DNA from: a virus | Length of the DNA: 50,528 nt | Virus record (IMG/VR): IMGVR_UViG_3300044470_000406 | Coordinates: 1 to 50,528 of that record | Strand: one strand, 5' to 3' | Shown: piece by piece, positions 3,572 through 16,409 of the stretch | Position numbering within the stretch: position 1 is the stretch's first letter | How the letters are laid out: the number at the start of each line of letters is the position of its first letter | Made by a program: the position numbers and the translations under genes | The notes under the pieces: model-generated | Seen by the model: only the letters and a program-made list of their open reading frames with translations | Told to the model about the DNA's origin: nothing | Database searches by the model: none

Positions 3572-4663
3572 TCAGTCTTCGTCGTCTTCTGCGGGCTCTC
3601 CGGTCAGGCGGTCAACAGACAATGTGCACCAACAGCCAGGGTGGGGAAGATCAGGTACGGCATCCACTGGATAGGGGGAATTTTCCTCAAGTTCAAGACA
3701 CGAACAGTCGGAATTGTCATCGTGATCCTCTGAGCATGTCCAGGAGATGGTTTCCACCCCGCCGGCCTGCCACCCCTGAAGGTTCCCGCGATTTTCCGCC
3801 AGGAGCGCCTCGGTCTTCGCAATCATCATGGCCCGCGACTCGCTGAAGGCGCCAGCCTCCTGGATGGCGGAACTGAGTTCCCGCATCCCGGTATTGCGAC
3901 TGAACGCGTCCTCTATCACGCTACGCAGGCTGTCGCGCGTGCTCTCTGAAATAGCCCACTGAGCATTCGGGTTGTCGACCAGCTTCCCATCGACCCACTT
4001 CTTGCCCACCATCTCCGCCGCGCGCTCATGCGCCCACTTGCCCGCGATGGAATTCACTTCGCTGATAACGTCCGTGTCGCGGATCTCCAGTTGGGCCAGC
4101 GCCTGGTACCCGCCGGCCTCCGCGATGGTGGTGAGCGCCGCTTCCGCCTCGGGAATCAGGTCGTCCCAGTCGATGTGGAGCACCTCATCCGCTTGCAGCG
4201 CCTGCATCGCGGCAATCTGGGCTGGCGTCAGTTTGGGCTTCGCATCGGCCTTCGAAACCTTCTCAGCCGACTCACCGACCAGCAGCACGCGCCTGGCGAT
4301 CTTCGCCGCGGCATCCCGCAGGAACTCCCCCAGCTTTGCCTGGAACTGGCGCCGGGCCCTGTCTACCGTGGGGCCGCCGCGCTGGAGTGGGGGCAGGCTG
4401 GCGGCCTTGCGCAGCCGGCGGCCATGCACATTGATGACTTCGCTTCCAGCCAGCGGGAGCGCCTCTCGCTCCCCGGCCTTGAGCACCTTCCCTTCGTCGC
4501 CGGGGCCCTCGAACTCGCGCGGGTCGAATCCGAGAATCCCCACCACATCGGAAGGCGTGGGGTTCAGCTGCGAATCGTCATCGGGAGACTCATCGGCAAA
4601 CTCTGGGGCGCGCCAGTCCAGTGCGGCCGAAACCTCGCCGAAATGTGCATCCAGTAGGCTCAT
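3572..4663 (-). CDS. Minor head / head morphogenesis protein (SPP1 gp7 / Mu F family)
   Basis: 363 aa. The C-terminal third has the family pattern: AMMIAKTEALLAENRG, then W..G....W.C.ED...SDCSCLELE, ending PHPGCWCTL with clustered Cys and His. Family members bind the portal or capsid and are carried in virions in few copies. The N-terminal ~50 residues are acidic (DAHFGE..DWRAPEF..SPDDDSQLNPTPSD..GILGFDP) and reappear in a short plus-strand fragment at 5595-5810. Position just downstream of the portal gene is the normal order. The start ATG follows AGGAATT. Confidence 0.88.
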   Translation of the reverse strand: MSLLDAHFGEVSAALDWRAPEFADESPDDDSQLNPTPSDVVGILGFDPREFEGPGDEGKVLKAGEREALPLAGSEVINVHGRRLRKAASLPPLQRGGPTVDRARRQFQAKLGEFLRDAAAKIARRVLLVGESAEKVSKADAKPKLTPAQIAAMQALQADEVLHIDWDDLIPEAEAALTTIAEAGGYQALAQLEIRDTDVISEVNSIAGKWAHERAAEMVGKKWVDGKLVDNPNAQWAISESTRDSLRSVIEDAFSRNTGMRELSSAIQEAGAFSESRAMMIAKTEALLAENRGNLQGWQAGGVETISWTCSEDHDDNSDCSCLELEENSPYPVDAVPDLPHPGCWCTLSVDRLTGEPAEDDED

Positions 4664-4805: not shown

Positions 4806-5180
4806 ATGACACAAAATGAGTTGCTCCGAACGATTACCGCCGCAGTAGCCGACATCCTGCGCACCGGGAACAGCGCACCAAAACTCTATCTCCGCGTGAG
4901 GCCGAATGGCTCCGTGGATGTGGATAAAGAGATATCGTGGTGCTGCTCCCCGGACGAGTATTATAAGCGCATCCCGCACACCCTCAGCCTCGAAGTGCTC
5001 CAGGGTAGCCGTGATTACACCGGCCTGGACGATGGCGAGATCGAACAGTGCGCAAACATGGCCGAAGAGGCTGCCGTGGATATCATCCTCGGATGGGAGC
5101 GTGAGATCGACGAATGGATTGCGGCCGGCAACCTGGAGGGCGTGGCCGAATCGGAACGCCATGTGCTCTATGCGGAGTGA
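4806..5180 (+). CDS. Phage protein of unknown function (124 aa)
   Basis: Starts MTQNELLRTITAAVADILRT with GAGGAG 6 nt upstream of ATG and a good promoter before it. Acidic, mixed alpha/beta composition with a central CC and a C-terminal helical stretch containing ILGWEREIDEWIAAG. No recognised family. It is one of two rightward genes inside the leftward late region, which suggests separate, perhaps early or lysogenic, expression. Confidence 0.75.
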   Translation: MTQNELLRTITAAVADILRTGNSAPKLYLRVRPNGSVDVDKEISWCCSPDEYYKRIPHTLSLEVLQGSRDYTGLDDGEIEQCANMAEEAAVDIILGWEREIDEWIAAGNLEGVAESERHVLYAE

Positions 5181-5382
5181 GCGATTGCCGAAAATCCGCA
5201 TGGCCAATAGTACTTTGCGGGCCAAGGCCACCCGCGCGCGAAGACGAATGGAAGGCCGTTGCATTGATTGTGACCATCGGCTCAAACACTCTCGGCGCTG
5301 GCGGTGTGCAGGATGCGCGCGGAAACAAAATGCTCTGCGGCGCAAATGGAGAATGGAGCGCAAATTGGGTAAACGAATCTGA
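5170..5382 (+). CDS. Small basic zinc-ribbon protein
   Basis: 70 aa, overlapping the upstream gene's end by 11 nt. Very rich in Arg and Lys, with CIDC at residues 31-34 and CAGC at 46-49, a likely four-cysteine zinc site, followed by a basic helix (RKQNALRRKWRMERKLGKR). A nucleic-acid-binding role is inferred. The ATG has no strong ribosome site of its own, so coupling to the upstream gene is likely. Confidence 0.6.
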   Translation: MRSERLPKIRMANSTLRAKATRARRRMEGRCIDCDHRLKHSRRWRCAGCARKQNALRRKWRMERKLGKRI

Positions 5383-5594: not shown

Positions 5595-5810
5595 ATGCCA
5601 ATACTGCCTGATGCCCATTTCGGAAACGCTCAGGATCCGCCGATTGACTGGCGCGGCCCGAAAGCCGTAGACAGCTCCGCAGACGATGATTCTGAGTTGA
5701 CGCCCACGCCGGCCGATACGGTAGCCCTACTTGGCTTCGATCCGGCGGATGGCACAAACACCGTTCATGCCGCCAGCCGCGCCCGCCATGGAGCGAATAC
5801 GGCGGGATGA
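5595..5810 (+). pseudogene. Fragment resembling the N-terminus of the minor head protein
   Basis: 71 codons from ATG 5595 (GAGGATACA before it). The first ~50 residues follow those of the minor head protein at 3572-4663: DAHFG, DWRxP, a DDDS(Q/E)LxPTP block and LLGFDP are kept in the same order, more than half identical over about 45 residues. After GFDP similarity stops and the frame runs antisense into the 3' end of the portal/topoisomerase gene. It lies on the opposite strand to its relative, so an inverted partial duplication is inferred. It could still be expressed as a short decoy or scaffold peptide. Confidence 0.6.
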
Positions 5811-8800
5811 ATATAGGAAGTTAGGGCCACCGTTGGCGTATTCCCCAGCCGACTGGATACATGCTCCGCCACCGCGCGTACGGCCTTCACGTATTCCTTC
5901 TGTGTGGATGGAGCCCGCATCGATCCCAGTTTGATTGCGGCCTCACGCGTTCCGAGCAACGTCCGAAAATCCTTGGTTTTGAACCCGCCGCCATCGAACT
6001 GGTGGGTGTACTCAAGCAGCGATGTCCCCGACACATGCGGGAATAGTTGACCGTCTGGTCCCGCCGCCGCAGCTCGATCCCTAATCATCCCAGCTATCTT
6101 CGAGTCACTCACCGGAAGATTGATATTTACGCCCTTCTTTCCTGTGAACCGCAGATAGGTCTGCTCGCCTTCCTGTACCACGTGGCGGCCCAATAGCGTG
6201 GTGGCTCCGTAAGCCTGCACCTTGGCCCGCGTATCCTCCTCCGAGCCAGGCCGGATGCCCATCGACATGACCAGGCTCGCGCATTCGGCGTGTTCCGCTG
6301 TCCTCCCATCGGCCGACCTCAGGTTGGCATCATTCTCCGCGCGAATCTTGTCGAACTTACTGTCCAATTCCTGAATACGCGCAAACTTGGCGGCCGATTG
6401 CGAATCCTGAAACTCCTTCGAGTACACGTACTGGTCGCGGCCCTTGGCGTCTTTTCCGATAGCTTGCAGCGCAGCCTTCGGATCGGGGTTGATGCGGACG
6501 CCTGTCCATGCCGGCGGGAGTTTCAACTCCTGAATATGCGCAGGCCAGTCCTTCCGATTTTCGGGTGCCGAGACCAACGCACTGGAGCCACCGCCACTAC
6601 CAAACTCTCCCCCGCCTGGCTGGCCGGCTGGAACCCGCGGCTGATCGTCCGAGTACTTCGCCAGCCACTCCAGCCCCTCTATGGCCTTCAGTAGCGCCAG
6701 CCGGTCAGTAGGTGAGTCGAGTGGTTCGTTTTTTTTTACGTCTTCCAGCCCGGCGATGGCCTTCCGGATCTCAATGGCGGCCGCGCGCGGGGTGAACTGC
6801 CAATCGACGGCCTTCTGCAACCCTTCGATCAACAGTAACGCTTTCGGCTTCGGCGTCTCATCGGCGGCCGGCTTCGTCTCACCCTTGGGCGGTTTCGCGC
6901 CAGGTTCAACGGGTTTCGTCTCAGGAGCGCCGCTTCCCGGCCCGCCTGGGGCGCCAGGCATCGCGCCGCCCTCGGGGGCGTGCTGAGTGATGGCCATCCA
7001 GCCGGCGGGCGTGGGCCAGCCCAGTTTGTCCGCCTCGGGCTCCGGCCGCGGATCGCGACCCAGCGCCTTCAGTTCGTCGTTCGGTGACGACATGAGAGCC
7101 GTTATCCTGATCTGAGCCGCCGTCGCCGCCTGCACCGGATCGGTCTGAGTTTCCATCGAGAAGCCAAACTCGTACCCGTCGAACCCCATCTGCACTTGCA
7201 GGATGTAGTTCATGAATACCCTGAAGAGCCACGTCGCCCAAGGCTTCGTGCCCTCTTCTTGCGCCGCCTCTTGATTGCTCTGGCTACTGTTCCCGTGAAT
7301 GGCGATCTTGCCGTTGCGGCGTGTGACAAACAGCCCCGTAGGTACCTTGAAGCACCACACTGGCCCGTCGTAGTTCTCTCGCCTGATGTTGTGAGTAGTC
7401 CACAGAATGTGCTCTTCTCGCAGGCATAAATTCACCCGATACATGGCATGGTGGATACGGGTCAATCCCGGGTGTTCCCCACGGTTAACAGCGGAAGCAG
7501 CGCAGTACCCCAATTTAAATGCCATCTCCTGAACATCGTCCCGCAAGCGCGGGGAGGATGTAGCGTATGAACCGGTAGCACCTTCCTTTCCTGGCACCCA
7601 GGAACCATCTCCGAGCATCATGGCATCGAATAGAATCCGCACTTGCCGAATCGATAACTTTAGAAATTCACGCGGGATGTGTTTGTCAAAACAATAGCCG
7701 CCCGTATTCCGCATCAGGTATTCGCAGAGCGGCTTCCCATAAACATTCCAGCGGGTCACGCCATCGGATTGCACTGGATACCGACTCCACTTGAACGGCA
7801 GCCGAGACAAGCAAGCTTCAATTTTTGCGACGTTCGCCGCGTCCTTCTGGCATAACGTCAGGAGATAGTGCCGCTTCGAGTGGGACAGGCCGCCCTCAGA
7901 CAGATAATATCCGAGGAATTCAAGCCAGTCATCCATCTTGACCGTGAAGCCTGGGCGCACACAACCGTTCCTGGCGCCTACCCTATTCTGCACCAGACAC
8001 ACTGTTGGGCCAGACACTCCGTACTTTCGGCCGATAGCCTCCTGCGTCATCCCCACTTCGGAGCGAATTGAGTCCATCTGTTCCAGCGTCAACTTGGCTT
8101 GCCCGAGATGAACAGCAGGGATCTCGAAAGTCTCAACTTCCCTTCCGGCGAACACAGCAGACGCCTCGAACTTCACTGGGCGCTTAACTGCCCCGGCACG
8201 CACCTTGCGGAACTCAGACCACGCGCGCTTGCGGCCATTGAATTGCCGCGCCCACATGTTGTGCTCTGGGGTTACGAGAACATCGACATTCTGGCTGGTG
8301 AAATGGACCATTTCGCCAGAATAAGGGTACAGGAACCGCTCCTCGGGGACAACGAACTCCATCCCACCAGTGATGGGATCGAACTGAGCTACCTTCTCCC
8401 CGTCAGCGATATCGCCGAACAGTTTCCAGCCATTCTCGGTGAGCGTTTCTGTATCCGCCGAATGGCAGGCGCGGTTCATCATTTTCAGGAGGCGCTGTGG
8501 TGACGTCCCAAACGCGAAGCAGATCTTCCGGATGTGCAGATCGTCGAATGGGTCTGCCAGTGCCTTCTCTTGGGTCTGAATGAACTGGTCTGCCCCGTTC
8601 TTATTGAACCCCTGCGCCATCTGGAACTGCTGCCGCGCCGCAAGGTCCCCCGCCAACCGCGAGTTCATCCACTTCATCGCGGTCTCAATGTCCTTGATGT
8701 CCGTGCCGGGAGGTACCACTTGCAGCATCCCCGGAATGGCGCCGGCCGTGTAGTTCAACGTCACAAACTCTAGCCGCTTGATGCCGACTTCGATTTCAGG

Positions 8801-9571
8801 GGCGGCCTGCTCTACGGGCCCCGACCCATACAGGTAACTCTGAAGCGTGTTGCGTGGCGCGATGTTCCGCGGCTTGTAGACCAGTTGGGTGGTGTCCATG
8901 TTCACCCGAGGAATCCCTGCCCAGAGCTGCGCATAGGCCGGCGCCGGCGGCTGGGGAGTGTAGCCATTGGCGTCGATGTAGCGGCAAATCACATGGCCAG
9001 GTAATACGTCAAGCCGCGCTACGTCGCCCTTCTTAGTTCTCCGCACCCTGACCGCTGGCGCATCACAAACCAGCATGTCATCCAGCAACGGCCGCACCCA
9101 CTCTGACCAGCAATGCTCGCCATCTGGGCGCTCGAAGAACTTTGTCAGCGTCTCGATGTTCTTGTCACCACGCGCGCGCTCTTCAAGCTGGCCCTTCATC
9201 TCCCCGAACTGTATGCGCGGCTGGATCTGCCACTCCAACCCGGAAACGATATCCTTGACGTTCTCGATACACCACCAGGCGAGCGGATATTTCGCCAGTC
9301 GCTTCAGATCTTCAGCGCTGTACTCTGCGTCCGCGCGCGGCGTGTACGTCAGGTTGGTGGCGTACTGGAATGGAAACGCCAGCGGCTCACTGCCCGCCGG
9401 CGCAATCGGCCGCACCGGCTGCCCTGGATTGGGGAACAGGCTGGTGTCGATCCCTGGAATCACCTCGGATGGCGGGCGATAGATGGCATCGGAAGCAGCT
9501 TGCCCCAGGCGCGTGAGCGCGGCGGAGAGACCGCCGATGTTTCGAATTGTCGCAAGCGGAGATTTGGCCAT
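5765..9571 (-). CDS. Portal protein with intein, fused to DNA topoisomerase IB
   Basis: 1268 codons. Residues 1-368 and 762 to ~860 are the two parts of a phage portal protein (KYPLAWWCIENV, GTSPQRLLKMMNRA, then EEGTKPWATWLFR), the ring through which DNA enters the head. Residues 369-761 are an intein (separate entry). Residues ~870-1000 are a Pro/Gly-rich linker with QPRVPAGQPGGGEFGSGGG. Residues ~1005-1268 match bacterial/poxvirus-type topoisomerase IB: LPPAWTGVRINPDP, a catalytic-Arg region MGIRPGSEEDT (R1107) before YGATTLLGRHV, GKKG (K1145/K1146), KDFRT (R1203), and LGNTPTVALTSYIHP with nucleophile Y1253. ATG 9571 (MAKSPLATIRN) is chosen because it lies just past the upstream stop; no strong ribosome site is visible. 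Either splicing or the full precursor would keep the topoisomerase attached to the portal. Confidence 0.92.
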   Translation of the reverse strand: MAKSPLATIRNIGGLSAALTRLGQAASDAIYRPPSEVIPGIDTSLFPNPGQPVRPIAPAGSEPLAFPFQYATNLTYTPRADAEYSAEDLKRLAKYPLAWWCIENVKDIVSGLEWQIQPRIQFGEMKGQLEERARGDKNIETLTKFFERPDGEHCWSEWVRPLLDDMLVCDAPAVRVRRTKKGDVARLDVLPGHVICRYIDANGYTPQPPAPAYAQLWAGIPRVNMDTTQLVYKPRNIAPRNTLQSYLYGSGPVEQAAPEIEVGIKRLEFVTLNYTAGAIPGMLQVVPPGTDIKDIETAMKWMNSRLAGDLAARQQFQMAQGFNKNGADQFIQTQEKALADPFDDLHIRKICFAFGTSPQRLLKMMNRACHSADTETLTENGWKLFGDIADGEKVAQFDPITGGMEFVVPEERFLYPYSGEMVHFTSQNVDVLVTPEHNMWARQFNGRKRAWSEFRKVRAGAVKRPVKFEASAVFAGREVETFEIPAVHLGQAKLTLEQMDSIRSEVGMTQEAIGRKYGVSGPTVCLVQNRVGARNGCVRPGFTVKMDDWLEFLGYYLSEGGLSHSKRHYLLTLCQKDAANVAKIEACLSRLPFKWSRYPVQSDGVTRWNVYGKPLCEYLMRNTGGYCFDKHIPREFLKLSIRQVRILFDAMMLGDGSWVPGKEGATGSYATSSPRLRDDVQEMAFKLGYCAASAVNRGEHPGLTRIHHAMYRVNLCLREEHILWTTHNIRRENYDGPVWCFKVPTGLFVTRRNGKIAIHGNSSQSNQEAAQEEGTKPWATWLFRVFMNYILQVQMGFDGYEFGFSMETQTDPVQAATAAQIRITALMSSPNDELKALGRDPRPEPEADKLGWPTPAGWMAITQHAPEGGAMPGAPGGPGSGAPETKPVEPGAKPPKGETKPAADETPKPKALLLIEGLQKAVDWQFTPRAAAIEIRKAIAGLEDVKKNEPLDSPTDRLALLKAIEGLEWLAKYSDDQPRVPAGQPGGGEFGSGGGSSALVSAPENRKDWPAHIQELKLPPAWTGVRINPDPKAALQAIGKDAKGRDQYVYSKEFQDSQSAAKFARIQELDSKFDKIRAENDANLRSADGRTAEHAECASLVMSMGIRPGSEEDTRAKVQAYGATTLLGRHVVQEGEQTYLRFTGKKGVNINLPVSDSKIAGMIRDRAAAAGPDGQLFPHVSGTSLLEYTHQFDGGGFKTKDFRTLLGTREAAIKLGSMRAPSTQKEYVKAVRAVAEHVSSRLGNTPTVALTSYIHPAVFAPWRARLAA
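7289..8467 (-). mobile_element. Intein with LAGLIDADG homing endonuclease in the portal gene
   Basis: 393 residues, codons 369-761 of the portal. N-terminal splicing block begins with Cys1 (CHSADTETLTENGW..GD) and block B has VLVTPEHNM. The endonuclease core has two LAGLIDADG-type helices (LEFLGYYLSEGG and LFDAMMLGDGSW). Before it, near intein residues 127-162, is a helix-turn-helix segment (TQEAIGRKYGVSGPTV). The C-terminal block is VWCFKVPTGLFVTRRNG..IHGN, followed by +1 Ser. The penultimate residue is Gly, not the usual His, a known natural variant. The insertion point is the conserved portal motif MNRA|S, a typical intein site choice. Confidence 0.93.
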
Positions 9572-9596: not shown

Positions 9597-9941
9597 TCAG
9601 TATAGGTCTGGCATTTGCTTCGGGATCGCGATTTCAAGTGAAGCGCCTCCCGTGAGCGGATATTGCGCCTGCTCAACGGTTATCGCTATGTGATCTCCGG
9701 TCACCGGGATGGCCCCGCAACCGGGATAAACGGTGATGAACAGGGACACCGGGAAGTGCTGCTCGCCCCACTCTCCAACGGCGCGCACCTCGACAACTTC
9801 GCTCGCTGCTTGCTGCGGGTCAGTCATCGCGCGCGGGTTCGCGTTTTGGTCTACCAGCCTATGCTGATCGTAGTCCCACTTCTTGATTTCCGCCCTGATG
9901 ACGCGGGCCACCAGTTTGATCTTGCTGCTTTCGTTTTGCAT
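9597..9941 (-). CDS. Phage protein of unknown function (114 aa)
   Basis: Starts MQNESSKIKLVARVIRAEIK at ATG 9941, with AAGGAG 6 nt upstream. Predicted beta-rich C-terminal half (FPVSLFITVYPG, ITVEQAQYPLTG). Ends 25 nt before the portal start, so it is co-transcribed with it. No family recognised; a head-assembly or DNA-packaging accessory role is only suggested by position. Confidence 0.75.
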   Translation of the reverse strand: MQNESSKIKLVARVIRAEIKKWDYDQHRLVDQNANPRAMTDPQQAASEVVEVRAVGEWGEQHFPVSLFITVYPGCGAIPVTGDHIAITVEQAQYPLTGGASLEIAIPKQMPDLY

Positions 9942-11421: not shown

Positions 11422-13413
11422 TTAGAGTCCCTTGCATAACCCGGCGAACTCATCCACCTGCCGGGTGGACTCGGAAATCATCCGCTCAAGACCTTCTCGC
11501 GCCGTCGGCAGTGTTTCCACCGCGCGCGCCCAATCTTCCATTCCCCAGGCAATCCCGTTCAGCGGGCCGCCCTGGTCCGCCTCAACTTGCTCGCGCGTCC
11601 GCACTCCATCCGGCACCACCAGCGTCGGGCAGCCGCACAACGCCGCCAGTGTGCTCAGCATCGTGGCGTGGTCGTAGCAGATGAACCTCTCGTGCCGGTT
11701 GAACACCGAGATCAGGTAATCGTCCTTGCCGCGCCGGTCGTAATCGTCAATACAAAGCGCATCAGCCGGGTGCTGATCCAGAACCTTGCCAGTCCCTTTG
11801 CGCACAGCGTAGCAGGTTCCACGCCGCGGTCCACCCATGTCCTTGAATGCCGAGTAGTCCCGCCAGACCGTCAGCAGGCCGCCTACGCGATGCGCCGGCG
11901 TAACCGGCGTCCGGTACGCCTCCGACCAGAGCATCAGCAGGTCGTCCGCCCCATACACCCCGTCGCCACCCAGTAGCCCGGGGATGTTCAGTATCCACCG
12001 CACCACACGCTGCGCTTGGAAGGGGTTGCCGCAAACGATCTCCGGGTAGATGGCAATCTCATCTTCGTCCACCACAGTGCGCCGGTCTGTTGGCTCGCCC
12101 AGCCAGCCTGGCGCCGTGCGCTTGCAGGTTATCCGCGCCTCATGCCCCAGGGCCGCCAGCCGATCCGCCAGACGGTGCAGCGCCAGGCCGCCGCCGCTTG
12201 CCGTGGAGTAGTCCCAGCCCCAGATCAAGAAACGCAGTGGCTTCGAACCCCCTTCGAATCCCACCGCGCGCCCTACCCGCAGTTGTGCGCTCTCCGCGGC
12301 CGTCCGGTACGCCTCTTCCCAGAGCCCGACGTTGCGCTCCATATTGCGTTCCGCCAGCACCCACTCGCGCTGCCACTTCACCAGCGCCTGCCGGTCGCTA
12401 TCGATCAACGCCACCAGTGCATTCGCCCACGCGCCCCGGTTGTTCTTCGCGGTGACTGGCACTTCTCTATCATACGGCGGAACGCGCGATGCCAGCGTGG
12501 CGGCGCCCACCATGCTGTACTCGTAGTGCTTCAAAACGCTCTTGCATCGGTTGAACTCCGAGTCCAACAGCGGCGCCAGCCCGATGTCCAGGTCCAGCGC
12601 AGCGAGCGCCGCGGCGTGTTCCCGCACGTCCATCACGAACGGGTGAAACTCGATCTTCAAGCCGCACTCGCGAATGCGCTGCAACAGCCACCGGAAGTCC
12701 ATCGCGAACGGCGAATCGACGAACGGCTGCCCGTGTTGCTCTGCCAGCCAGCGGTACTTGTCTTCCAACCCGCCGCCGTCCGGGATTCCCTCAGCGCTGA
12801 GCAAGCCCTGCACCACGAAGGTGAACGGCCGCCGCTTCTGCGCATCTCGCACCGCCGGAATGATCTTCCCCAGGTCGTTCAGGTGGCTCGATCCGCCGGA
12901 CCATCCTACCCGTAGGCCAGGGTCACCAGCGGGGCGTGGCGGCCTCAGCGCCGCGGCCGTGGGCCATTCCTCGGGGTCAACGCTATTCGGCAGCACAAAC
13001 ACGTCGCGCCAGCGCGGCAATCCAGCCTGTTCCCGTTGTTCGAACAGCCGATCCGCCAGGTGCGGGGTGGTGGTGGTCACCACATCCGCCTGCTCTAGCA
13101 GGTAGTCGTAGCGCCCCAACCGGACCTTTGCACTCCAGTATGCCGGGTTGCTGGCAGACACCGCATCCAGCGCATCGTCCGTCTCGAACACGATGCCGAT
13201 TCCGTTGGCCTTGCACCATGGCACCGCGTCTTCCATGTCCTTCGCATCCATCCGGAAGAACACCACCACATCCGGGAGATAATGTTCGGGTGCGCATCCG
13301 CCATCCCCGAAGAACCGCACTTCGTGCCCGCGCCGCGCTAGGTACTTCGCTGGAATGAGCGCCCGCCATTTGGCTGGACCCTCGTTCTGCTGGGTGACGA
13401 AGAAGAGCTTCAT
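11422..13413 (-). CDS. Two-domain GT4-like glycosyltransferase
   Basis: 663 aa from ATG 13413 (MKLFFVTQQNEGPAKWRAL); in-frame upstream starts to 13521 exist but add a non-conserved extension. Two GT-B-like halves are visible, each opening with a Rossmann strand: MKLFFVT near residue 1 and LRFLIWGWD near residue 400 with a Gly-rich loop (SGGGLALHRLADRLAALGHEA). The first half has VGWSGGSSH and a DIGLAPL segment, typical of GT4 sugar-nucleotide sites. It probably transfers sugars to host surface polymer or virion proteins. A glycosyltransferase inside a head-gene operon suggests glycosylation of virion or fibre parts, or surface conversion. Confidence 0.8.
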   Translation of the reverse strand: MKLFFVTQQNEGPAKWRALIPAKYLARRGHEVRFFGDGGCAPEHYLPDVVVFFRMDAKDMEDAVPWCKANGIGIVFETDDALDAVSASNPAYWSAKVRLGRYDYLLEQADVVTTTTPHLADRLFEQREQAGLPRWRDVFVLPNSVDPEEWPTAAALRPPRPAGDPGLRVGWSGGSSHLNDLGKIIPAVRDAQKRRPFTFVVQGLLSAEGIPDGGGLEDKYRWLAEQHGQPFVDSPFAMDFRWLLQRIRECGLKIEFHPFVMDVREHAAALAALDLDIGLAPLLDSEFNRCKSVLKHYEYSMVGAATLASRVPPYDREVPVTAKNNRGAWANALVALIDSDRQALVKWQREWVLAERNMERNVGLWEEAYRTAAESAQLRVGRAVGFEGGSKPLRFLIWGWDYSTASGGGLALHRLADRLAALGHEARITCKRTAPGWLGEPTDRRTVVDEDEIAIYPEIVCGNPFQAQRVVRWILNIPGLLGGDGVYGADDLLMLWSEAYRTPVTPAHRVGGLLTVWRDYSAFKDMGGPRRGTCYAVRKGTGKVLDQHPADALCIDDYDRRGKDDYLISVFNRHERFICYDHATMLSTLAALCGCPTLVVPDGVRTREQVEADQGGPLNGIAWGMEDWARAVETLPTAREGLERMISESTRQVDEFAGLCKGL

Positions 13414-13581
13414 GCTGTTGAAGAAAACCTGCCCTTGGGATGCTTGTCTTTCCATCCCATGCCCGGTGTTCCGGGTAAACTCTAAAGCTGAGAGAGAAGT
13501 CTTGGTTCTGACCGACGCCATCCCAACTTTGCGCCAGTCTCAGGCTCTTTACCCTACGGGATGCCCCCGCAGGAGGCCCCG

Positions 13582-15157: not shown

Positions 15158-16258
15158 TCACCCTTCTGCCGTAACATCGACAGCGCCCCTACCGGGCGCT
15201 AATTTCAATACGTTCAGCGCGGCGTTTAAGTCACGTCCCATCGATAGTCCGCACTGTGGGCATGTGTGCCAGCGGTCGCGCAATCCCTTCGGGACTACGG
15301 TGTCACACTGGCTGCATCGTTGGGTTGTGCCTTTGGGGTTGACTGCCACAACATAGCGACCGGCGCTTTCAGCCTTGTACGCAAGTTGAAATAGCAATTG
15401 TCCCCATGCCGCATCGAGAATGGACTTGGCGAGGAAACCCCTCACCATACTGCGAATCTTCAGGTTTTCGTGGGCGATCAGATCATACCGGCCCACCAAT
15501 TCTTTCGAGACGTGATGGCAGAAGTTCCGGCGCGCATCCGTCATGCGCTGATACGCCCTCCGCACCCGCTCCTTCGCCCGCAAACGGTTATTGCTCCCTC
15601 GCCCCTTGCGCGCCAGGTTCTTTTGCTCTCGCGCAATTCGCTCGGCGTGCTTACGGATAAAGCGAGGGTTCTGAACTTCGCTCCCGTCCGAGAGTGTGAC
15701 GAACGTAGTCAACCCGAGATCGATTCCAACTGGATTTGATATGGCAGCCTTCTCAGGAGCAGGCCCGATATCGTATATTGCACGGGCGATCCACCTATTG
15801 CCAATCCGCTTCACGATGACCTGCTTCAACGTCCCCTGGGGAGGACGATGTGCATTGAATCGGACGTGCCCAAGGTTCGGAACGAGCAACGCATCCCCGT
15901 GGATTCGTGGAGCGTTCCAGGCGAACGAATTATAGCGGAACGTCGGCCGGAACCGAGGATAGCCAGGATTCTCCCCCGACTTACAGCGTCGGAAAAACGC
16001 CTTAAACGCTCGGTCTACGCGATGTAATGGCTCGCGTTGGATTTTGGATGAGATGACAGAGAGTTGGGGGATTTTCCGAAGTCCCGCAAGCTGATGGCAT
16101 TGATGATTATAGGTGAGTCGTTCCCCGTTGATTCCCCACGCATCTCGCCTGGCCTGGAGCGCCGCATTGTAGGTATTGCAGCTATCCACAAGGATCTCCT
16201 CAAAGGCATCGCGTTGGGCCTTTGTGGGCTTCAATCGCAACTTAAATGACCGAATCAT
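15158..16258 (-). CDS. tnpB: TnpB RNA-guided nuclease (IS200/IS605-type)
   Basis: 366 aa, normal TnpB length. N-terminus MIRSFKLRLKPTKAQ is typical. The RuvC catalytic residues are all present: D180 (GIDLGL), E264 (IAHENLKI) and D343 (GRDLNAALN). The zinc ribbon is C315/C318 and C333/C336. TnpB proteins cut DNA beside a short target motif using an RNA made from the transposon's right end. No TnpA transposase is nearby. The ATG overlaps the stop of a small zinc-finger ORF (ATGA), and the next gene starts 3 nt after its stop, so it is embedded in the late operon. Confidence 0.95.
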   Translation of the reverse strand: MIRSFKLRLKPTKAQRDAFEEILVDSCNTYNAALQARRDAWGINGERLTYNHQCHQLAGLRKIPQLSVISSKIQREPLHRVDRAFKAFFRRCKSGENPGYPRFRPTFRYNSFAWNAPRIHGDALLVPNLGHVRFNAHRPPQGTLKQVIVKRIGNRWIARAIYDIGPAPEKAAISNPVGIDLGLTTFVTLSDGSEVQNPRFIRKHAERIAREQKNLARKGRGSNNRLRAKERVRRAYQRMTDARRNFCHHVSKELVGRYDLIAHENLKIRSMVRGFLAKSILDAAWGQLLFQLAYKAESAGRYVVAVNPKGTTQRCSQCDTVVPKGLRDRWHTCPQCGLSMGRDLNAALNVLKLAPGRGAVDVTAEG

Positions 16259-16260
16259 GG
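16250..16260. repeat. 11-bp direct repeat, right copy flanking tnpB
   Basis: CCGAATCATGG, identical to 15093-15103. In minus-strand reading it spans the overlap between the zinc-finger stop and the tnpB start. Confidence 0.75.
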
Positions 16261-16374
16261 CTTCTTTGGACAGTGGGGTAGGTGTTTCCGGAGTTCCCGC
16301 GACCCCATACTGATTCTGCAGAATGGGCAAGGAAGCACTAATTTCTTTCGCCCCGCTCCGGCCCTTTTCGGCAT
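16255..16374 (-). CDS. Small zinc-finger protein, family copy A
   Basis: 39 aa: basic N-terminus (MPKRAGAGRKK), CPFC, then HLPHC, giving C-x2-C and H/C ligands. It is a paralogue of the ORFs at 31480-31605 and 38280-38405, which share the G/R-rich start, the PCxxC block, RExRxH and HxxHC. The ATG has no ribosome site but a -10 element exactly 6 nt upstream, implying a leaderless message. The stop overlaps the tnpB start. Probable DNA-binding regulator; function not known. Confidence 0.75.
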   Translation of the reverse strand: MPKRAGAGRKKLVLPCPFCRISMGSRELRKHLPHCPKKP

Positions 16375-16380
16375 ACCAAC

Positions 16381-16409
16381 ATTGTGCCACAATTCAAAGA
16401 AGAAAGCAA
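16381..16409 (-). promoter_or_regulatory. Leaderless promoter of zinc-finger copy A
   Basis: Minus-strand TTGCTT (16409-16404), 17-bp spacer, CACAAT (16386-16381), then 6 nt to ATG 16374, placing the predicted +1 on the start codon. The -10 lies in a near-palindrome ATTGTGxCACAAT. Confidence 0.6.

Follow-up and report, generated by a model that had tools for sequence, protein, structure and literature searches.

A phage portal protein with a C-terminal type IB topoisomerase: swappable head cargo and a conserved A tract that indicates probable programmed slippage

Introduction

Enzymes fused to the portal protein or to the minor head protein MuF, and encoded within the portal-terminase gene cluster, are presented by Iyer et al. 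2017 (PMC5512222) as polyvalent effectors, proposed to be packaged in the head and injected; portal fusions to 2H, PBECR and pyrophosphatase (InPase) domains are among those proposed. Portal fusions to NUDIX and ADP-ribosyltransferase (ART) domains have been proposed as injected effectors as well (PMC9503650), and the joining of portal or MuF to effector domains is an established theme. In the MuF polymorphic toxins a variable C-terminal domain is borne by a head protein encoded beside the portal (Jamet et al. 2017, PMC5576092). Here we describe an open reading frame (ORF) of a soil-type phage, in virus record IMGVR_UViG_3300044470_000406 of IMG/VR, analyzed whole (50,528 nucleotides, hereafter the window), in which a portal protein is joined to a type IB topoisomerase (TopIB).

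Two further systems are relevant. The portal of phage SPP1 targets a few copies of MuF (gp7) into the procapsid, where the protein supports infection (PMC6316719). In dnaX-type slippage (Escherichia coli, Thermus thermophilus) an A-rich slip site is accompanied by nearby stops in the other frames (review PMC5009743), and two products are made from one gene at a set ratio, as in the tail-gene frameshifts of SPP1 and lambda.

The locus resembles the polyvalent effectors in that an effector domain is fused to a portal within the packaging gene cluster, and departs from them in its cargo: TopIB does not appear in the main text of PMC5512222, nor is a portal-cargo slip site described in its accessible part. 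The carrier also differs from that of the MuF toxins, being the portal, with MuF encoded as a separate ORF (3572-4663), and the word "topoisomerase" is absent from PMC5576092. In the known slippage systems the tract lies elsewhere than at a portal-MuF or portal-cargo junction, and the accessible text of PMC5009743 does not mention "portal".

Results

The fusion ORF lies on the minus strand (9571..5765) and runs for 1268 codons with no internal stop; an additional TTG start is found at 9676. The original prediction, made from the letters of the window, had read this frame as a portal joined to TopIB through a Pro/Gly linker. The open frame, profile matches to both domains and the translated linker bear this out, the coordinates hold, and the strand, which had not been given, is minus. 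The residues named as catalytic (R1107, K1145, K1146, R1203 and Y1253) are each found at these positions in the 1268-residue numbering.

The C-terminal domain (5765..6559, minus strand) is confirmed, by sequence profiles and a predicted structure, as a type IB topoisomerase with all catalytic residues. It matches PF01028 (E value, E, 7e-20, residues 1053-1250) and PF21338 (Top1B_N_bact, E 4e-9) in Pfam, and the closest sequence of solved structure is the Deinococcus radiodurans TopIB 2f4q (E 5e-26). Structure prediction, which had been suggested for both halves, recovers the topoisomerase IB fold: the AlphaFold2 model of the C-terminal 311 amino acids (pLDDT 87, pTM 0.81) matches 2f4q (E 1e-14) and variola topoisomerase 2h7f (TM 0.70) in Foldseek, and all 22 PDB matches with E<=0.001 are topoisomerase IB. 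The catalytic Arg, Lys, Arg, His/Asn and Tyr occur in order, and R1107, K1145, R1203, N1244 and Y1253 are invariant across a 23-sequence alignment; of the two lysines proposed as catalytic it is K1145, not K1146, that is invariant (an alignment that took in highly divergent members was uninformative). The active-site geometry would follow from this alignment and the fold match. The fold, the N-terminal domain and the R-K-R-N-Y set are shared with the D. radiodurans enzyme (2f4q/3m4a). Unlike the bacterial enzymes, the window TopIB lacks the C-terminal extension of the aligned chromosomal forms, is at most 37% identical to the plasmid-borne examples compared and falls into a separate phage group in the tree.

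The portal half matches PHROG 2662 "portal protein" (E 1.5e-27; E 3e-24 for residues 1-368, at 8468..9571). Its fold was found through a model of the portal of locus L002, which is 98% identical and uninterrupted; the model, of modest confidence (pLDDT 60, pTM 0.46), matches the portals of phage 812, HK97 and gene transfer agents (GTA), with E down to 8e-13. Residues 369-761 (393 amino acids, 7289..8467), overlooked in the original prediction, are an intein of class 1 LAGLIDADG type, putatively self-splicing: they begin with Cys369, carry LAGLIDADG motifs, end in His759-Gly-Asn761 before Ser762, match intein-containing PHROGs at both ends, and are missing from the empty site of L002 (MMNRA|SSQSNQ), while the match to LAGLIDADG_3 is weak and below the Pfam cut-off. 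The portal resumes at residue 762 and, from the alignment with the L002 portal core, extends to about residue 863 (6983..7288). Alignment gaps indicate that L030, L038, L041 and L042 carry inteins or other insertions elsewhere in the portal, and MuF is split by an intein in L014, L048 and L117.

The Pro/Gly-rich linker between the portal core and TopIB (6587..6982; low in confidence or disordered in the models) ends in a cargo junction motif, KYSDDQPRVPAGQPGGGEFGSGGG (6587..6658). Single-protein searches for close relatives of TopIB and of the portal found L002 alone. Between the head modules of the window and L002 the portal, the linker and most of MuF are 92-96% identical in DNA; the homology ends at the codons for KYS(E/D)DQ, exactly at the junction motif, and resumes inside MuF, and in between L002 has an unrelated domain where the window has TopIB. 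Further portal relatives were gathered by scanning IMG/VR with a portal alignment. In these the same slot holds 2H/Acb1-like, zeta-toxin or papain-fold domains, or MuF, and a cultured Arthrobacter phage has a NUDIX domain there. Motifs resembling the one at this junction stand before the majority of TopIB domains and before several of the other cargoes. TopIB was sought in 15 genomes with portal relatives and found in none.

Among the alternative cargoes, those of L002 (6039-6626) and L008 (2312-2827) are 45% identical to each other and by eye look nuclease-like, with a conserved D...VEVKT (EVK motif); searches of Pfam, PHROGs (with L002) and sequences of solved structures returned no match. 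In L015 (411-3251) the portal is fused to a 2H phosphoesterase matching the anti-CBASS protein Acb1 (PF23474, E 3.7e-5), possibly a virion-carried anti-defence enzyme, and similar tails were seen by eye in L016, L020, L023, L038, L041 and L042.

The linker contains the only A/T run of at least 8 in the window, an A9 tract within GTA AAA AAA AAC (6729..6737), a putative programmed slippage site. Past it frame 0 continues for 320 codons, and the -1 and +1 frames stop after 7 and 12 codons, respectively. The tract is identical in L002. The L008 portal is 71% identical; there frame 0 ends 9 codons past A9, and it is the -1 frame that stays open, for 188 codons, reaching the junction motif and a cargo of the L002 type. 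In 73 non-redundant loci 15 runs of at least nine A lie in the first 350 nt past the portal core, with none in the 606 kb elsewhere; scanning again with another alignment added 58 non-redundant loci, which have 20 in the linker and one in 471 kb elsewhere. Together, 35 of 131 non-redundant relatives carry such a run in the linker, and it occurs once in 1.08 Mb elsewhere, counts that are not fully independent because some loci are moderately related to each other (most are metagenome assemblies). A search of bacterial genomes added another linker A9 (L233, with no other such run in its locus); the Trinickia locus L232 is already within the counts. Culturable relatives that have the tract include Thermoanaerobacterium phage THSA-485A and the Trinickia prophage.

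The arrangement of frames around these runs is regular. Frame 0 is closed by a stop 1-23 codons past the run in 14 of the 35 loci, and in every one of these the -1 frame is the long one and encodes MuF (13 loci) or the L002-type cargo (1 locus); where frame 0 is itself long, both alternatives reach a stop in no more than 22 codons. Both configurations match those of the slippage genes dnaX and spa13 (review PMC5009743). The tract is not merely the mark of a lysine-rich linker, since of the Lys-Lys-Lys cases in linkers 31/56 use A9, against 2/58 of those elsewhere. With a conserved A9-A10 tract, a short alternative frame, and MuF or cargo encoded only in the -1 frame in 14 of 35 loci, the sequences indicate programmed slippage, -1 ribosomal or transcriptional, which would give portal-only and portal-cargo products.

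A scan with a TopIB alignment returned 34 loci, about 19 of them phage-type, with TopIBs about 36-67% identical (32% for the divergent member L141). In phage-type loci with a complete frame, TopIB forms the last domain of head or effector proteins that belong to unrelated families, or of small proteins. The search for other portal-TopIB fusions, proposed as a check, found them on three other portal families: Phage_portal_3 (L115, L123, L124), Phage_portal_2 (L116) and Portal_Mu (L141). TopIB also follows MuF (L117, L120), ART (L118, L142) and InPase (L122), and some phage-type TopIBs terminate small stand-alone proteins. In L115 (5078-7783) a rubrerythrin/ferritin-like segment (PF02915, E 2.7e-8) lies between portal and TopIB in one polypeptide. 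Phage-type TopIB loci mostly adjoin portal or MuF genes, and a motif like HPRDxxGRFGSGSG stands ahead of most of these TopIBs, as judged by inspection of the junctions because the loose expression HPRDxxGRF is unspecific (191/2281 long frames).

In the tree the phage-type TopIBs form a group distinct from chromosomal TopIB (support 90/92); the fusion partners are dispersed over it, the pattern expected of repeated fusions. The closest TopIB, in L110, is on a contig that ends before the N-terminal partner; the next gene begins with a MuF-like N-terminal peptide. No TopIB-portal fusion was found in 50,697 GenBank phage records, which hold two distant TopIB genes, neither seen fused (one annotated as stand-alone, the other in an unannotated record). 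A TopIB match was found in 25/289 alphaproteobacterial genomes; the two long-frame matches inspected are chromosomal type and unfused. Because the cargo is swappable and related TopIBs sit on other portal families, MuF, ART and pyrophosphatase proteins, TopIB is best read, from these comparisons, as a recurrent head cargo within the polyvalent protein theme and not as part of this packaging motor.

Downstream of the fusion ORF, the separate MuF-like minor head protein gene (3572..4663, minus strand) is recognized by the C-terminal half of PHROG 2662 (E 1e-12), by head morphogenesis families and weakly by PF04233. A plus-strand fragment (5595-5757, MPILPDAHFG...LGFDP), 55% identical to the N-terminus of this MuF, abuts the end of TopIB as an inverted remnant; it raised the possibility of an active invertible element in the interval from TopIB to MuF, which was rejected since no DNA-level inverted repeat was found there. 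The same interval holds two small ORFs on the plus strand (4806-5180 and 5200-5382, the latter coding for a small Cys-rich, zinc-ribbon-like protein), which are opposed to the head genes and are possibly moron or immunity genes. Between the terminase and portal genes lies a gene, conserved in L002, for a 699-residue glycosyltransferase-like protein with two GT4-like regions (11422-13521, minus strand), and an IS605 OrfB / TnpB-like protein (OrfB_IS605, Cas12f1-like_TNB) is encoded at 15158-16390 (minus strand).

Discussion

The ORF probably specifies a portal whose C-terminal cargo is facultative and swappable; TopIB here would be loaded into the head in metered amount and delivered when the phage infects. 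The steps that we infer, from slippage and its ratio through intein splicing, capsid location and injection to the DNA target, would run as follows. The intein would splice itself out of the portal half, and since it accounts for residues 369-761 the mature fusion would have about 875 amino acids. Slippage at A9 would lead part of the product to the nearby stop, giving a plain portal of about 560 amino acids, with portal-TopIB as the remainder. Fusion chains built into the portal, or bound to it, would bring the topoisomerase into the capsid, at the place that MuF occupies in relatives. Delivered with the genome, the enzyme may work soon after infection begins, as an effector that needs no ATP and relaxes the incoming phage DNA, host DNA or both. 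The earlier suggestion that TopIB is injected or acts at ejection is the best fit among the proposed roles, injection itself being presumed here.

Several observations weigh against this reading. In the window the reading frame runs straight through A9 into the long product, so that the fusion can be made without slippage. RNA structure around A9 is no stronger than in shuffled sequences, and no stimulatory structure is predicted. About 73% of the non-redundant relatives have no linker run of at least nine A, and the TopIB fusion ORFs on other portal families have no such runs. The exact portal and TopIB pair is complete in one locus only.

Among the alternatives, one takes the A9-A10 run as a phase-variation (contingency) tract, in which replication errors toggle the cargo between genomes in place of slippage within one cell. 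Homopolymers this long do mutate, and in-frame and out-of-frame loci both exist, but all 14 out-of-frame loci with at least nine A are in the -1 register and none in +1, whereas random indels would give both; we regard this explanation as rather improbable. One A7 locus, L010, is in the +1 register.

That TopIB is tethered to the portal ring and removes torsion at the packaging vertex during translocation, as the original prediction had offered, seems to us unlikely. The location would suit it, and TopIB needs neither ATP nor metal, relaxation of torsion being its normal chemistry (established enzymology); yet the 98%-identical portal of L002 has another cargo and no TopIB, and related TopIBs sit on unrelated carriers (other portals, MuF, ART, InPase and small proteins). 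Furthermore, slippage at A9, if it occurs, would leave some portal subunits without the enzyme, which makes TopIB on every subunit unlikely.

We give equally little credence to a host-directed toxin of the polymorphic type that would be accompanied by a neighboring immunity gene and would collapse supercoiling in the host. MuF toxins are known (PMC5576092), and domains of zeta, papain-fold and ART type occur in related slots and in TopIB proteins; yet no immunity gene was identified here, the plus-strand genes between TopIB and MuF having no assigned function, and relaxation by TopIB is not known to be toxic in itself. An assembly chimera or a decayed, functionless gene, which the single full example of the pair might suggest, is very improbable given the 1268-codon open frame, the invariant catalytic residues, the same domain order on independent contigs with other portals, and, in L110, the gene next to TopIB, whose product has a MuF-like peptide at its N-terminus.

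In general, it is reasonably probable that a widespread portal family sets the number of its cargo-bearing subunits (MuF, topoisomerase, a possible anti-defence enzyme) by slippage at A9-A10, and that here the topoisomerase enters the host with the DNA. As MuF of SPP1 enters in few copies, a fused portal-MuF or portal-cargo gene would gain from also making unfused portal, and the A tract supplies a way. Within the literature searched, TopIB as head cargo and a conserved slip tract at a portal-cargo junction appear to be new. No paper joining topoisomerase IB and portal, and nothing relevant on transcriptional slippage and portal proteins, was found in a search that lay outside most subscription journals and all bioRxiv preprints, so that these absences are weak.

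For annotation the arrangement is a trap, the cargo or MuF frame seeming unlinked to the portal in many relatives. The fusion would add DNA topology to what phages may alter with virion-carried enzymes. The conserved A tract offers a simple account of how a 12-mer portal could come with few cargo domains or MuF copies from one fused gene and, if this is true, portal slippage would be the head-protein counterpart of the tail-chaperone frameshift.

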